Shown here: positions 12,159 through 18,556 of the stretch, one piece after another
Numbering within the stretch: the stretch's first letter is position 1
Layout: every line of letters begins with the position of its first letter
Source of the DNA: Gemmatimonadaceae bacterium
GTDB lineage: Bacteria > Gemmatimonadota > Gemmatimonadetes > Gemmatimonadales > Gemmatimonadaceae
Length of the DNA: 64,000 nt
Direction: 5' to 3'
NCBI GenBank assembly: GCA_011525845.1
Contig: WYBP01000018.1
Span: forward strand, 62,001-126,000
Made by a program: the position numbers and the translations under genes
Notes under the pieces: model-generated
Databases searched by the model: none
What the model saw: the letters and a program-made list of their open reading frames with translations, nothing else
What the model was told of the DNA's origin: nothing

Positions 12159-13829
12159 ATGTCCGAGCCAGTCGCTGACATACCCGAGGTGCTCCGGCGC
12201 TTCGCCGAACTCGTGACGCTCGTGAGCGAGCGCCCGACGGCGGCGGTGGAGCAGCGGACGCTCGTCAAGGAGGTGGTGGACGCGGCGAAGCGTGCGGAGG
12301 GTTCGCTCACGCTCGGTGCGGACGGCTCGCTGGCGACCGCGGCCGGGCCGGCGGAGTTCCCGCTCCTCGCCAAGCGCTTCAAGGGGTACGGGATCGAGGA
12401 GTTGACGATCACCGGAAGGGCCGCGGTCGCGGACCTCCTCGACCTGGCGCGGATGCTCGCGGCGGAGCCGTCCGGTGCGGATCCCGCGGGCGCATTCGCG
12501 GGGCGCTCCGCGGTGCTGGACCGGCGTGCGATCCGTCTCCAGTTGCGCCCGCGCGAGGCCTCACCGCCGTCCGCGCCCCTTCCCACCGCGCCGGCCCGCT
12601 CCTCGCGGCGCGAGACACCGGTGCGGCGGTCCTCGGGCTCCATGCCGGCGGTGCCGCCCCCGGATGCGGCCCCCGCCGCGCGCGCCACGCCCGCCGCGCC
12701 CGCGCCCCTGCAGCCACAGCACCCCGACGAGCCCGAGCGGCTCGAGCGTGCGATCGCCGTGCCGACCCCGTCCCACCGTGGCCTCGCCGCGGCGGTCCAG
12801 GCCCTCGCGGACGCGGAGCGCGAAGCGTCCGCCGCGCTGCCGGCGGCGCTCGACGAGCTCGTCCAGCAGGTCGACCTCGCGTTCCGGCAGGGACGGCACG
12901 CGGACCTCGTCGAGGGGATGGCCGCCATCGTCGCGCTGGAGCACCAGGCGCTGGAGCGCGACTCGTCCGACACGCGGCGCCAGCTCTTCAACCACGCCCT
13001 CAAGCGGCTCACCGTGCGCCCGATGATGCTCCGGCAGCTGGCGGTGCTGCGGCACCAGCTGGACGCTGACGCGACCGCCAGCGAGCGGCTGCAGGCGATC
13101 CTCCACCGCTATGGCGTCTATGGCGCCGATGCGCTCGCCCACGAGTACATCTCGGCGCCCACCGCGGAGTCGCGCGCGGCCTGCCTCGCCGCCCTCAAGC
13201 GCCTGCGGCGCACGCATGACTCGCTCCTCGGGCTCGCGCGCAGCACCAGCGTGCTCGATGTCCGTGAGGCCGCGACGATCCTCGGCGAACTCCGGGACGC
13301 GCGCAGCGAGGAGATCCTCGTCGAGATCCTCCGCCATCCGGAGCCGCGCGCCCGCCGCGCCGCGGTGGCGGCCCTGGGCGGCTTCACCTCGCCGAGTTCG
13401 CTCGACGCGATCGCGCTCCTGCTGCAGGACGAGATCGCATCCGTCCGGCTGCGCGCCGTGGCCGCGCTCGGCGCGCGCGGCGACCCGCGCGCCGTCGCGA
13501 TGCTCGCGCCCCTCCTGGACCAGGAGCCGAACACCGAGGTCCTCTTCTCGGCCATCGGCGCCGTGGGTGCGGCGTCGACCCCCGAGGCGGTGCAGCTCCT
13601 CATCCGCGTGGCCCAGGGCGAGGGGGCGCACCCGAACCGGCGCAGCGCCGCGATGCGGGTGCTGGCCTGCACGGCGCTGGTGGCGATCCGCACGCCGACG
13701 GCGATGGCCGCCGTGCAGATGCTGCGCGACGACCGGGACGGCGAGGTGCGGGAGGCGTCGATGCGGCTCGTGGCACAGGCATCGCGCCGCTCCACGAGCG
13801 CGTCGCAGGCCGTCGTCGCGCAGCCCTGA
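12159..13829 (+). CDS. HEAT-repeat protein
   Basis: 556 residues, soluble. A helical N-terminal region (about 1-130) is followed by a proline/alanine-rich linker (about 135-195). The C-terminal half, from about residue 360, consists of HEAT-like helical pairs such as VREAATILGELRDARSEE, RAAVAALGGF and VRLRAVAALGARGDP. HEAT repeats usually mediate protein-protein contacts; no catalytic domain is visible. Its TGA overlaps the ATG of serA (TGATG), so it is co-translated with serine-synthesis genes, although a role in that pathway is not evident. It may act in scaffolding or regulation. Confidence 0.78.
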   Translation: MSEPVADIPEVLRRFAELVTLVSERPTAAVEQRTLVKEVVDAAKRAEGSLTLGADGSLATAAGPAEFPLLAKRFKGYGIEELTITGRAAVADLLDLARMLAAEPSGADPAGAFAGRSAVLDRRAIRLQLRPREASPPSAPLPTAPARSSRRETPVRRSSGSMPAVPPPDAAPAARATPAAPAPLQPQHPDEPERLERAIAVPTPSHRGLAAAVQALADAEREASAALPAALDELVQQVDLAFRQGRHADLVEGMAAIVALEHQALERDSSDTRRQLFNHALKRLTVRPMMLRQLAVLRHQLDADATASERLQAILHRYGVYGADALAHEYISAPTAESRAACLAALKRLRRTHDSLLGLARSTSVLDVREAATILGELRDARSEEILVEILRHPEPRARRAAVAALGGFTSPSSLDAIALLLQDEIASVRLRAVAALGARGDPRAVAMLAPLLDQEPNTEVLFSAIGAVGAASTPEAVQLLIRVAQGEGAHPNRRSAAMRVLACTALVAIRTPTAMAAVQMLRDDRDGEVREASMRLVAQASRRSTSASQAVVAQP

Positions 13830-15445
13830 TGGCATCGACCTATCGGATCCTCGTCACGGATGCGGTCGACCCCGAGGGCGTCGCGGTCCTCACGGCGGTG
13901 CCCGGCTTCCGCGTGGACGAGGTGCCGACGCTCGGCGCGGCGGACCTCCTCTCGCGCATCGCGGACTACGATGCGATCGTCGGCCGGAGTGCCACGCGGA
14001 TCTCGGCCGAGCTCCTCCGCGCCGCGACGCGCCTCCGCGTCGTGGGACGCGCCGGCGTCGGCGTCGACAACGTGGACATGGACGCCGCCACCGCGCTCGG
14101 CGTCGCGGTCATCAACGCGCCGGCGGGGAACACCGTCGCGGTCGCGGAGCTCCTCTTCGGCAGCCTGATCGGGCTGGTCCGCGGGATCCCGGCGGCGAAC
14201 CTCTCGCTGCACGAGGGGCGCTGGGAGCGCTCCAGGTTGATGGGACGCGAGCTCAAGGGACGGAGCCTCGGGATCGTGGGCCTCGGCCGCATCGGGAGCG
14301 AGGTGGCGGTGCGCGCGCACGCGTTCGGCATGGAGGTCGGCGCCTTCGACCCCTACGTGACGGACGACCGCTTCCTCGCCCTGCGCGTGCGGCGGTACGC
14401 GACGCTGGAGGCCCTGCTCGACGCGGCGGAGCTGCTCACCGTCCACACGCCCCTCACGGACGAGACCCGGGGGATGATCGGTGCGCGCGAGCTCGGCCGC
14501 CTGCGCAGCGACGCCGTGGTCGCGAACCTCGCGCGCGGCGGGATCGTGGACGAGGGGGCGCTGGTGGAGGCGCTCCGCGCGGGGCGGCTCGCCGGTGCCA
14601 CCCTCGATGCGTTCGTCGCGGAGCCGCTCACCGGGGACCACCCGCTCCGCGGCGTCCCGAACCTGCTCCTCACCCCGCACATCGGGGCGAGCACGCAGGA
14701 GGCGCAACGGAACGTGGCGGTGGACGTCTGCGAGGCCGTGCGGGACGCGCTGCTCGACAACGAGCTCTCGCGCTCGCTCAACGTGGCCACCGGCGACGGC
14801 GTGGCGTGGCGCGAGGTGCAGCCCGTGCTCCAGCTGGTGCAGCGGGCGGCGGTCGTGGCGCGCGCGATGCTCGCCGAGCGCGGCGCCCGTGCCGTGACGC
14901 GCCTGGCGCTGCGCTCCGGCGCCGAGTGGCGCGGGCGGGGGGCCGTGCTGCTCTCGGCGGCGGCGGTCGGGGCGCTCGAGAGCGTGCTCGAGGAGGGGAG
15001 GCTCAACCTGATCAACGCGCGCACGCTCGCCGCCGCGCGCGGGATGCAGCTCAGCGCCATCGAGGGCGCCGCCGGGCTCGGGCCGTACGAGGTCGAGGTC
15101 GCCCTTGGCACCGCGACCGACGAGGTCCCGGTGGCGGGCTCGGCGCCGCCGGGCGGCACGGCACGGCTCACCCGGATCGGCGGCTTCCACGTGGACGTGA
15201 ACCCGCGACAGACGCTGGTGATCCTGACCAACCGCGACGTGCCGGGCGTGATCGGGCGCGTGGGCACCCTCCTCGGCAACGAGGGCGTGAACATCGCCGA
15301 GTACCACCAGGCGCGGCTGGCGCAGGGTGGGGAGGCGCTCGCCGCGGTGAGCGTGGACGGCGTCGTGACGGAGCGCACGCGGCAGGCGCTCCTCGCGATC
15401 CCCGACGTGCTGACCGCCGCCGTGGTGCGGTTCGGCGCGTCGTGA
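13829..15445 (+). CDS. serA: D-3-phosphoglycerate dehydrogenase
   Basis: 538 residues, the long (type I) form. An N-terminal substrate domain encloses a Rossmann domain with GLGRIGSEVA (about 152-161). The catalytic residues are visible: Arg in NLARGGIVDE, Glu in VAEPLTGDHPL and His in LTPHIGASTQEAQ. An intervening domain (about 320-450) and a C-terminal ACT domain (from about 462, TNRDVPGVIGRVG) follow; the ACT domain usually gives serine feedback inhibition. It oxidises 3-phosphoglycerate to 3-phosphohydroxypyruvate, the first step of serine synthesis. It overlaps its neighbours on both sides and sits with serB- and serC-like genes. Confidence 0.95.
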   Translation: MASTYRILVTDAVDPEGVAVLTAVPGFRVDEVPTLGAADLLSRIADYDAIVGRSATRISAELLRAATRLRVVGRAGVGVDNVDMDAATALGVAVINAPAGNTVAVAELLFGSLIGLVRGIPAANLSLHEGRWERSRLMGRELKGRSLGIVGLGRIGSEVAVRAHAFGMEVGAFDPYVTDDRFLALRVRRYATLEALLDAAELLTVHTPLTDETRGMIGARELGRLRSDAVVANLARGGIVDEGALVEALRAGRLAGATLDAFVAEPLTGDHPLRGVPNLLLTPHIGASTQEAQRNVAVDVCEAVRDALLDNELSRSLNVATGDGVAWREVQPVLQLVQRAAVVARAMLAERGARAVTRLALRSGAEWRGRGAVLLSAAAVGALESVLEEGRLNLINARTLAAARGMQLSAIEGAAGLGPYEVEVALGTATDEVPVAGSAPPGGTARLTRIGGFHVDVNPRQTLVILTNRDVPGVIGRVGTLLGNEGVNIAEYHQARLAQGGEALAAVSVDGVVTERTRQALLAIPDVLTAAVVRFGAS

Positions 15446-16800
15446 CGGCCACCGCGGAGGACGTCCGCCGCTCGTACGCGCGCGACGCATCCGGGATGAC
15501 GATGCTCCCGGACGCGGTGCTCCGGCCCCGCGACGAGGCGGATGTCGTGGACGCGATCCGCGCCGCCGCCTCCGCCGGCACGACCATCACGGTGGCCGGC
15601 GCGCAGACGAGCACCACCGGCGCGTCGATCACCGACCGCGGCGCGCTCATGTCGCTGCGGGCACTCGACGCGCGGGTGCGGGTGGATCCGGTCGCGCGCA
15701 CGGTGCGCGCGTCGTGCGGCGTGATCGTGGCCGACCTGCGCCGCGCCTGCGCGGAGCAGGGGTTGCTCTTCACCCCGGATCCGACGAGCGACGAGTCCTG
15801 CACCGTCGGGGGTGCGGTGGCGTGCAATGCGTCCGGCGCGCGTTCCTTCGCGTATGGCGCGACCAGGCCGCACGTGGCGGCGCTGCGGGTCGCGCTCGCG
15901 GACGGGCGGGTGGAGGAGTACCGCCGGCCCCGCATCGGGAAGAACACGGCCGGCTACCTGCCGGTGCAGGACCCGGTGGACTGGTTCATCGGCAGCGAGG
16001 GGACGCTCGGCGTGGTGCTCGAGGCGGAGTTCTCGCTCCTGCCGCTCCCCGCGCGCACCACCGGGCTCGCGGTGCCGTTCCGCCGCGAGGCGGACGCGCT
16101 GGGGTTCGTGCTGGCCGCGCGGGAGGATCCCGCGGTGCGCCCCGTCTGCCTGGAGTACACGGATGCCGAGGCGACCGGATTCATGCGGCGCGCGGCCGAT
16201 GACGAGGGGTGGGCGCGCGGTGCGGCGGCGATGGTCTACGTCGAGGACTCGGGGGACTCCCCGGAGGCGCCGCTGGACGACTGGTTGTCGTTCATCGAGT
16301 CGCATGGCGGGTTGGCCGACGACCTCCGTGTGTTCGAGGGCGACGCCGCGCTGCGCGAGGCGCGCCGGCTCCGCCACGCGGTGCCGAGCGCGATGCACGA
16401 GCGGGCCGCGCCGTTCCTCGCGAAGGGCGGGCGTCGCGTGAGCACCGACTGGGCCGTGCCCGTCCGGCACATGTCCGGCGCGCTCGACGCGTCGCGGCGC
16501 GCGGCCGACGCGCGGGGGATCGAGCACGCGGTCACGTACGGCCATGTCGGCGATGGCCACCCGCACCAGAACTGGGTGGCGCGCGACCCCGACGAGCTCG
16601 CGGCCCGGGAGGGGTGCGTGGAGGACACGCTGCGGGAGGTGCTGGCCCGCGGCGGCACCGTCGCCGCGGAGCACGGGATCGGCAAGCTCAAGAAGCGCTG
16701 GCTCCCGCTCCAGCTCGGCGAACGGCAGTTCTCGATGATGCGCGCGATGAAGCACGCGCTCGATCCCCAGGGCCTCCTCGCGCCCGGGAACCTCTGGTGA
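15442..16800 (+). CDS. FAD-linked oxidase/dehydrogenase (GlcD/D-2-hydroxyglutarate dehydrogenase type) in the serine operon
   Basis: 452 residues from a GTG overlapping the serA stop. The FAD_binding_4 domain shows the PDPTSDESCTVGGAVACNASGA region (residues about 110-135) and a GSEGTLGVV segment. The C-terminal FAD-oxidase domain has YGHVGDGHPHQNW (metal-binding histidines) and AEHGIGKLKKRW. The family oxidises D-2-hydroxy acids such as glycolate, D-lactate or D-2-hydroxyglutarate. Because it lies between serA and serB with overlaps on both sides, I favour D-2-hydroxyglutarate, which PGDH enzymes make from 2-oxoglutarate. That substrate is inference. Confidence 0.85.
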   Translation: MTATAEDVRRSYARDASGMTMLPDAVLRPRDEADVVDAIRAAASAGTTITVAGAQTSTTGASITDRGALMSLRALDARVRVDPVARTVRASCGVIVADLRRACAEQGLLFTPDPTSDESCTVGGAVACNASGARSFAYGATRPHVAALRVALADGRVEEYRRPRIGKNTAGYLPVQDPVDWFIGSEGTLGVVLEAEFSLLPLPARTTGLAVPFRREADALGFVLAAREDPAVRPVCLEYTDAEATGFMRRAADDEGWARGAAAMVYVEDSGDSPEAPLDDWLSFIESHGGLADDLRVFEGDAALREARRLRHAVPSAMHERAAPFLAKGGRRVSTDWAVPVRHMSGALDASRRAADARGIEHAVTYGHVGDGHPHQNWVARDPDELAAREGCVEDTLREVLARGGTVAAEHGIGKLKKRWLPLQLGERQFSMMRAMKHALDPQGLLAPGNLW

Positions 16801-17444
16801 TGGCGCGCTTCGCGAGCGTGGTCCTCGACGCGGACTCCACCCTCTCGGGCATCGAGGGGATCGACTGGCTGGCCGAGCGTCGCAGTGCGGCGGTGGCGGC
16901 GGAGAGCACGGCGCTCACCGCCGCGGCGATGGATGGTGCGCGGACGATCGAGTCGGTGTATGCCGATCGCCTGGCGCGCGTGCGGCCCTCGCGCGAGATG
17001 ATGGCCGCGCTCGGCGCCGCCTACATCCGGTCGGTCGCGCCGGGCGCGGAGGCGTGCATCGAGGCCCTGCGCGCGGCGGAGGTGCGCGTTGTGGTCGTGA
17101 GCGGCGGGCTCCGCGCCGCGCTCCTCCCGCTCGCACGGCATCTCGGCATCCCGGCCGCGGACGTCCACGCGGTGGGGATCCGGTTCGACGACGACGGCGA
17201 GTACGCGGGGCTGGATGGTGAGCAGCCGCTGGCGACGCAGGCGGGGAAGCCGGCGGTCGTCCGTTCCCTCGGCCTGCGCGCGCCCGTGCTCGCGGTGGGG
17301 GATGGCGCGACGGACGCGGCGATGCGCCCCGAGGTCTCCGCCTTCGCGGCGTACGTGGGTTTCGTCCGGCGCGCGTCCGTCGTCGCGCAGGCCGACCACG
17401 TGCTCACCGGGTTCGACGAACTCCGCACCCTCGTGCTGCCATGA
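16800..17444 (+). CDS. serB: Phosphoserine phosphatase (HAD-IB type)
   Basis: 214 residues. The HAD motifs are VVLDADST (motif I, with the nucleophile and acid aspartates about 9-11), VVVVSGGLRAAL (motif II), a lysine in QAGKPAVV and GDGATDAAM (motif IV). The helical cap between motifs I and II, with SIEGIDWL-like Glu/Asp residues after motif I, fits SerB. It hydrolyses O-phosphoserine in the last step of serine synthesis. There is no N-terminal ACT domain. The start overlaps the previous stop (TGATG) and the stop overlaps the aminotransferase start (ATGA). Confidence 0.9.
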   Translation: MARFASVVLDADSTLSGIEGIDWLAERRSAAVAAESTALTAAAMDGARTIESVYADRLARVRPSREMMAALGAAYIRSVAPGAEACIEALRAAEVRVVVVSGGLRAALLPLARHLGIPAADVHAVGIRFDDDGEYAGLDGEQPLATQAGKPAVVRSLGLRAPVLAVGDGATDAAMRPEVSAFAAYVGFVRRASVVAQADHVLTGFDELRTLVLP

Positions 17445-18556
17445 CCCTGCGACCCTTCGGCCACTTCTTCCTCCCGGGACCGACGGATGTCCGCCCCGAG
17501 GTGCTGCAGGGGATGGTGCGCGGGATGCTCCCGCATCGCGGCGCCGAGTTCGAGGCGCTCTTCGCGCGGCTCGTCGCGGGACTGCAGGGCGTCTTCCGCA
17601 CCTCGCGCCCGGTGTTCATCAGCTCGTCCTCCGCGACGGGGCTGATGGAGGCCGCCGTGCGCGCCACACCGCCGGGACGCGTGCTGTCGGTCGTCAACGG
17701 CGCGTTCTCCGAGCGCTTCGCCCGCATCGCCCGCGCCTGCGGCCGCGAGACCGAGGTGCTGGAGGTGGAGTGGGGGCGCGGGGCGGATCCCGCGCGCGTG
17801 CGGGAGGCGTTGCGGGCGCACCGGTTCGCCGCGGTCACGGTGGTGCACTCCGAATCGAGCACGGGCGCACTCACCGACGTGCGCACCATCTCCGACCTCG
17901 CGCACGAGGCGGGCGCCGCCTGCCTCGTGGACTCGGTCACCGGGATCGGCGCGACGCCGGTGGAGACCGATGCGTGGGGACTCGACTTCGTGCTCACCGG
18001 CTCGCAGAAGGCGCTCGCGCTGCCCCCGGGCCTCGCGTTCGGCGTGGCCTCGGCGGCGTTCATCGCGAGTGCGACGCGCGGCGAGCAGCGCGGCGTCTAC
18101 TTCGACCTCGTGGAGTTCGAGGAGTACGCGCGCCGGAACCAGACGCCGAACACGCCCGCGCTCCCGCTGCTCTACGCGCTCGACGCGCAACTCCCGCGCA
18201 TCGCGGCGGAAGGGGTGGAGGCGCGCTGGGCGCGCCACGCGGCGATGGCGGCACGCATGCACGCCTGGGTGGCGGAGACCGCGACCGTCATCGGCGCGCC
18301 GCTCGCGATCCTGGCGCCCGCTGGCGAGCGCTCACACACCGTGAGCGCCGTCCGCCTCCCGGAAGGCATCGCCGGCGATGCCGTGGTGCGCGGCGCCGCG
18401 GCCCGCGGGTACGTGATCGGCGACGGCTACGGGAGGCTCAAGGGGAGCACCTTCCGCGTCGGGCACATGGGGGACCACACCCTCGAGACGCTCGAGGGGT
18501 GCCTCGCCGCATGCGGCGAGGCGCTGGCCGAGCTCCGGGGCGTCAGCGGGCGGTGA
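17441..18556 (+). CDS. Class V PLP aminotransferase (probable phosphoserine or serine-glyoxylate aminotransferase)
   Basis: 371 residues. It begins with the class V signature FLPGPTDVRPEV (substrate carboxylate loop), has ESSTGALTDV, the PLP aspartate in LVDSVTGIGA and the Schiff-base lysine in TGSQKALALPPGL (about 190). Sequence style is that of the alanine-glyoxylate/serine-pyruvate group, which in archaea, cyanobacteria and several bacterial phyla does the SerC step. Co-translation with serA and serB supports phosphoserine aminotransferase as the role; this is inference. The 3' end overlaps the M42 peptidase gene by 14 bases in convergent orientation. Confidence 0.85.
   Translation: MTLRPFGHFFLPGPTDVRPEVLQGMVRGMLPHRGAEFEALFARLVAGLQGVFRTSRPVFISSSSATGLMEAAVRATPPGRVLSVVNGAFSERFARIARACGRETEVLEVEWGRGADPARVREALRAHRFAAVTVVHSESSTGALTDVRTISDLAHEAGAACLVDSVTGIGATPVETDAWGLDFVLTGSQKALALPPGLAFGVASAAFIASATRGEQRGVYFDLVEFEEYARRNQTPNTPALPLLYALDAQLPRIAAEGVEARWARHAAMAARMHAWVAETATVIGAPLAILAPAGERSHTVSAVRLPEGIAGDAVVRGAAARGYVIGDGYGRLKGSTFRVGHMGDHTLETLEGCLAACGEALAELRGVSGR

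Follow-up and report, generated by a model that had tools for sequence, protein, structure and literature searches.

A putative FAD-linked D-2-hydroxyacid dehydrogenase encoded beside serA in Gemmatimonadota

A conserved serA neighborhood

The window analyzed here, a stretch of 64,000 nucleotides from contig WYBP01000018.1 of a Gemmatimonadaceae bacterium, contains a block of four genes at positions 13829–18556. These encode a D-3-phosphoglycerate dehydrogenase (SerA), an oxidase linked to flavin adenine dinucleotide (FAD), a phosphatase resembling SerB, and a class V aminotransferase (Table 1). Consecutive genes overlap by 4, 1, and 4 bases, in agreement with the overlaps of 1–4 bases described in a first-pass annotation of this DNA: serA and the FAD gene share the bases GTGA, the FAD gene and serB share a single base, and serB and the aminotransferase gene share ATGA. 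That annotation also described the block as a serine operon, which is borne out by the finding that serA, serB, and the aminotransferase gene constitute the only recognizable phosphorylated serine pathway in this genome (3.58 Mb, 99.8% complete).

We surveyed the association between serA and the FAD gene in two samples, i.e., 200 genomes of the phylum and 74 further loci from the same family. Orthologs of the FAD gene were present in 51 of the 200 genomes and adjoined serA in 47 of these; in 46, the FAD gene starts close downstream of serA, and in the 47th (G062) the pair is split by a contig end. Among the 74 additional loci, 68 carry serA upstream, five are cut by contig ends, and one lacks serA, i.e., serA was found in 68 of the 69 loci for which upstream sequence was available. 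When both samples are pooled, 120 loci are informative, and in 115 of them the FAD gene has serA immediately before it. The first-pass annotation had named a lack of conserved linkage as grounds for rejecting its coupling proposal; instead, these data establish a genuine and strong linkage that is conserved within the phylum, and rule out chance adjacency of the two genes (47/51; 68/69). The junctions are also tight: 59 of 109 overlap and a further 37 have gaps of 20 bases or fewer, with some genomes counted twice. Over 90 loci, distances between SerA proteins correlate with those between FAD proteins at r = 0.87; the two genes are thus co-inherited, though this is not by itself a measure of function. 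The commonest gene order is serA-FAD-serB-aminotransferase, and two genera (g33 and g62) retain the serA-FAD pair with neither serB nor the aminotransferase gene adjoining.

Exceptions to this pattern occur in both directions. Five genomes (G057, G188, G044, G146, and G248) encode the FAD enzyme with no serA at the locus, and in G057 and G188 the gene still adjoins the aminotransferase gene. In genus g8, G057 (L042) keeps the FAD-aminotransferase pair and G063 (L204) keeps only serB, at apparently the same site flanked by transaldolase and pyruvate kinase genes; this pattern looks like stepwise, piecemeal loss of the serine operon. Conversely, five genomes (G047, G094, G095, G113, and G141) carry serA-serB-aminotransferase operons that lack the FAD gene. 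Taken together, these two sets of five suggest that the FAD enzyme assists SerA without being essential to serine synthesis in every genome, and that it can be of use where this SerA is missing. Separately, six same-genus genomes (G004, G028, G073, G087, G128, and G170) keep the aminotransferase and contain no match to this serA or serB.

The partner genes were assigned using family models. SerA exceeds the cut-off of TIGR01327 (498.6 versus 454 bits) over its whole length (model positions 1–524 of 525), which identifies it as Type I, with both the ASB and the ACT region, though the ACT match itself is borderline (26.9 versus 27). It is the sole match in its own genome at an E-value of 1e-60. 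The phosphatase exceeds the HAD-IB model TIGR01488 (66.9 versus 45) and falls below the serB equivalog TIGR00338 (76.3 versus 144); its genome contains no other homolog at an E-value of 1e-5. The aminotransferase belongs to PF00266 and reaches no equivalog cut-off, scoring 74.3 versus 401.7 with the serC model TIGR01366. Its best match among solved structures, 2dr1, bears the name serine aminotransferase, and many members of the phylum that lack the FAD gene have its orthologs next to serA; a role as phosphoserine aminotransferase is therefore likely, judging from context only. No homolog of the HEAT-repeat gene upstream of the block was found next to serA in related loci, and this gene is probably only a local feature outside the conserved operon. 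An apparent second serA-serC pair on contig C22 of the same genome was rejected, as it comprises a glyoxylate-reductase-like gene and an aminotransferase gene with a BhcA-like counterpart in G188. It belongs to a recurring cluster (L104–L107, in G000:C22, G188, G057, and G004) that pairs the glyoxylate-reductase-like gene with an apparent isocitrate dehydrogenase gene; the cluster encodes an aminotransferase of the BhcA/serine-glyoxylate type in G188, with similar genes in the others.

Table 1. Coordinates and supporting features of the genes described in the text. Positions are those of the window unless another locus is given.
Gene product	Position	Strand	Features
SerA, Type I D-3-phosphoglycerate dehydrogenase	13829..15445	+	538 aa; ASB and ACT regions
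Predicted FAD-linked D-2-hydroxyacid dehydrogenase, uncharacterised clade	15442..16800	+	452 aa; GTG start; PF01565 and PF02913; catalytic residues; tree
SerB-like HAD-IB phosphatase	16800..17444	+	passes TIGR01488; falls short of TIGR00338
Class V aminotransferase, likely phosphoserine aminotransferase	17441..18556	+	PF00266; 2dr1; neighborhood
HEAT-repeat protein	12159..13829	+	PF13646; 1-base overlap with serA
YdiJ-like FAD protein	G000:C14, L040 4077-5792		571 aa; without the iron-sulfur half

Family placement and active site of the FAD enzyme

The FAD enzyme contains FAD_binding_4 and FAD-oxidase_C domains only. Its best NCBIfam model is that of the glycolate oxidase subunit GlcD (TIGR00387), for which it scores 191.5 bits against a cut-off of 567.9; against the YdiJ model NF049975 it scores 106.1 versus 1350 bits, and it lacks the iron-sulfur domain of that protein. 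An AlphaFold model (pLDDT 80) matches structures of LctD, 3pm9, D-lactate dehydrogenase, D-2-hydroxyglutarate dehydrogenase (D2HGDH), and LDHD. Foldseek matched D2HGDH, LDHD, and LctD almost equally (TMq mostly 0.71–0.77), and the fold search therefore does not decide the substrate. In a maximum-likelihood tree, the Gemmatimonadota enzymes group with two deltaproteobacterial sequences, within a wider group from Acidobacteriota, Omnitrophota, Chlorobiota, and others. This clade stands apart from D2HGDH (6lpn and 3pm9), GlcD, LDHD, LctD, and YdiJ in a tree with moderate deep support (84/95) and some long branches. By sequence, then, the enzyme is not a member of the human/Pseudomonas D2HGDH family. 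Two other identities were considered and rejected. Glycolate oxidase is disfavored by the low GlcD score, by the absence of adjoining GlcE or GlcF genes, and by the presence of a GlcD/GlcF-like pair elsewhere in the genome. As for alkyl-dihydroxyacetone phosphate synthase, the AGPS-like paralog is encoded on contig C3 rather than in this operon. At this second locus (L041, 4897-8954), the alkyl-dihydroxyacetone phosphate synthase-like FAD protein is encoded beside a thioester-reductase/PlsB-like acyltransferase fusion, and these are possible ether-lipid genes.

Alignment to human D2HGDH, using residue roles from two studies (PMC7801405; PMC10589216), revealed that the catalytic center is fully conserved. 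In D2HGDH, residues R386, H434, H441, E475, and H476 bind the metal, the C1 carboxylate, and the C2 hydroxyl (PMC7801405), and their equivalents are invariant in the aligned orthologs. Because every one of these residues is present, the FAD enzyme is very likely a D-2-hydroxyacid dehydrogenase.

Specificity in this family is set by subsite B, formed by T390, K401, and N443 in D2HGDH, by W351, S365, and I407 with A363 nearby in LDHD, and by Phe341 and Tyr351 in GlcD (PMC10589216). K401 is strictly conserved in D2HGDH and binds the C5 (distal) carboxylate (PMC7801405). The equivalent subsite in the window clade consists of Pro, Ser, Tyr/Phe, and Asn (rarely His), with Asn or His at the N443 position and Tyr or Phe at the Y432 position. 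All 42 orthologs have Arg or Lys at the position of mLDHD Ala363 and GlcD Tyr351; this invariant basic residue (R332 here) precedes by two residues the Ser found in place of K401, and it borders the same subsite. A distinctive His is also present in a GNGHPH motif of the clade. The hydrophobic subsite of LDHD (W351, I407, and A363) is absent, with Pro, Asn/His, and Arg/Lys in its place. These features suggest that the pocket is polar and basic and suited to substrates with an acidic side chain. D-lactate and glycolate may thus be less favored than D-2-hydroxyglutarate, D-malate, or 3-phosphoglycerate, and R332 (or Lys) would replace K401 in holding the distal acidic group. The pocket argument, drawn from the alignment, is limited by the occurrence of Lys at the R332-equivalent position in some enzymes of another clade.

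Possible roles of the FAD enzyme beside SerA

Our preferred reading of this locus, which we advance tentatively and judge to fall slightly short of probable, is that the flavoenzyme acts as a partner of SerA by recycling D-2-hydroxyglutarate or a close acidic analogue. SerA oxidizes 3-phosphoglycerate with nicotinamide adenine dinucleotide (NAD), an uphill step, and would reoxidize the resulting NADH at the expense of a 2-oxoacid; the most plausible one is 2-oxoglutarate, as supplied by the aminotransferase of the operon. The metal- and FAD-dependent enzyme would then oxidize the D-2-hydroxyacid (D-2-hydroxyglutarate or, for example, D-malate) back to the oxoacid and pass electrons to an electron-transfer flavoprotein (ETF). 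In net terms, respiratory electrons would pull serine synthesis forward and the side product would be kept from building up. We infer each of the substrate, the side activity of a Type I SerA, and the electron acceptor. With respect to the last, a distant relative in L127 (2955-6515) directly follows EtfB-like and ferredoxin-EtfA-like genes, a context that suggests that enzymes of the wider clade work with ETF or by electron bifurcation; the genome containing the window also has two adjacent ETF-domain genes. Both observations are consistent with ETF as the acceptor. The coupling of the enzyme to SerA is further supported by the persistence of the serA-FAD pair in g33 and g62, and the dispensability of the FAD gene in five close operons is expected, since the enzyme would be a helper rather than a pathway step.

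Several observations weigh against recycling of D-2-hydroxyglutarate. SerA here is of Type I, the type reported not to reduce 2-oxoglutarate. The two D2HGDH structures 6lpn and 3pm9 pair with 100/100 support away from the window clade, and the K401 position is Ser in 41 of 42 orthologs and Gly in the remaining one, although E. coli YdiJ, a proven D2HGDH, lacks K401 too. The D2HGDH identity proposed in the first-pass annotation was supported only in part: the catalytic residues argue for a flavin-dependent 2-hydroxyacid dehydrogenase, but the enzyme falls outside the D2HGDH clade and lacks K401. The YdiJ-like FAD protein encoded elsewhere in the genome is another D2HGDH candidate. The FAD gene is also retained in four genomes (G057, G188, G044, and G146) that have no SerA match (1e-60) and no SerB homolog; their copies retain 98–100% of the residues that are invariant elsewhere and therefore look functional. 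Finally, among the matches listed, the fetched flanks of the nearest relatives outside the phylum contain no serA, and the conservation shown here is that within Gemmatimonadota. At two loci from Acidobacteriota (L120 and L151), a relative of the FAD enzyme follows an apparent uvrB gene with no serA nearby, and in L151 it precedes a gene for a HAD-family hydrolase. We also considered functional replacement by the YdiJ-like paralog, which occurs in 118 of the 200 phylum genomes; its distribution was uninformative, as it is found alike in genomes with and without the FAD gene.

Other readings account for some of these observations. It is conceivable, though on the doubtful side, that the clade represents either an ETF-linked dehydrogenase of 3-phosphoglycerate or D-glycerate or an independently invented D2HGDH, with Arg332 or Lys in place of K401 and a Type I SerA as its partner. 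In the direct route, the flavoenzyme would itself oxidize 3-phosphoglycerate (or D-glycerate) and feed the aminotransferase, providing a respiratory second entry beside the NAD-linked SerA; the products, on this unlikely route, would be phosphohydroxypyruvate from 3-phosphoglycerate and hydroxypyruvate from D-glycerate. Such a role has been proposed for another FAD-linked oxidase in Burkholderia and Herbaspirillum, which lack serA (PMC5764234), and a direct 3-phosphoglycerate dehydrogenase is therefore a serious rival. 3-Phosphoglycerate is itself an acidic D-2-hydroxyacid of approximately the same length as D-2-hydroxyglutarate, which would suit the seemingly basic subsite B, and the FAD and aminotransferase genes occur together without serA and serB in G057 and G188. 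We nevertheless consider this route improbable: a second enzyme would be redundant in nearly all of these genomes, given that they encode SerA. In those genomes without serA that were checked, SerB homologs are missing as well, so that a phosphorylated route there would be incomplete. Moreover, the Burkholderia proteins failed to complement an E. coli serA mutant (PMC5764234) and have several extra domains that the window enzyme lacks.

There is likewise a low probability that the enzyme is a dehydrogenase of D-lactate, glycolate, or a broad range of D-2-hydroxyacids that merely shares the operon. GlcD is its best model, Foldseek matches D-lactate dehydrogenases as well as D2HGDH, and the FAD gene can be missing from, or outlast, the serine genes. 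However, the GlcD score lies far below its cut-off, no GlcE or GlcF gene adjoins it, a GlcD/GlcF-like pair is located elsewhere in the genome, the bulky hydrophobic subsite B residues of LDHD and GlcD are absent, and linkage to serA in 115 of 120 loci is hard to explain on these grounds. Quite improbable is a metabolite-repair enzyme that clears another D-2-hydroxyacid formed promiscuously in serine or amino-acid pathways with no pull on serine synthesis: the five operons that continue without the FAD gene would fit, but the sequence names no specific substrate and the tight coupling to serA suggests more than an occasional need. Overall, the flavin enzyme probably recycles a side product of SerA or gives the electrons of the first step another outlet.

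Comparison with known systems

How the unfavorable first step of serine synthesis is driven is still under active study, and demonstrations of the D-2-hydroxyglutarate shuttle come from few bacteria and involve Type II SerA. The pairing of a Type I SerA with a flavoenzyme from another clade, conserved in a phylum, would reveal whether such coupling was invented more than once, and it allows the claimed lack of side activity in Type I SerA to be tested directly. Were the substrate 3-phosphoglycerate, the enzyme would instead open a respiratory way into serine synthesis. In Pseudomonas stutzeri, D-2-hydroxyglutarate is established as the link that couples SerA to D2HGDH (described in PMC9504171). 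Type II SerA enzymes share the ability to reduce 2-oxoglutarate, which the Type I and Type III enzymes examined lacked (PMC9504171). The same paper also points to reports of 2-oxoglutarate reduction by human PHGDH, which is of Type I (PMC6300728), and the literature on this activity in Type I SerA is conflicting. The gene linkage has precedents: SerA is among the most frequent neighbors of bacterial d2hgdh genes (PMC8651671), and the linkage described here is therefore not a first. In Acinetobacter baumannii, serA (ABUW_0331) and an FAD-linked oxidase gene (ABUW_0332) have consecutive locus tags (PMC12604733).

The window enzyme resembles the D2HGDH (EC 1.1.99.39) of P. stutzeri and P. aeruginosa in its superfamily, its tie to serA, and its catalytic and metal-binding residues, and the ETF-domain genes of its genome offer a possible acceptor as in the Pseudomonas coupling. 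It differs in belonging to another clade, in lacking K401, in accompanying a Type I rather than a Type II SerA, and in its four-gene operon. E. coli YdiJ provides a parallel as a D2HGDH outside the Pseudomonas/human family that lacks K401; however, YdiJ is a protein of approximately 1018 aa with an iron-sulfur part, and the YdiJ-like protein of the window's genome is encoded by a separate gene (L040). The FAD-linked oxidase of Burkholderia and Herbaspirillum shares a genetic link to serine synthesis (PMC5764234), but contains DUF3683, 4Fe-4S, CCG, and DUF3400 domains and occurs in hosts without serA, whereas the window enzyme has none of these four domains and is encoded with serA. Lastly, LDHD and GlcD are similar to the window enzyme in fold and subsite A residues, and differ from it in subsite B, gene context, and position in the tree.
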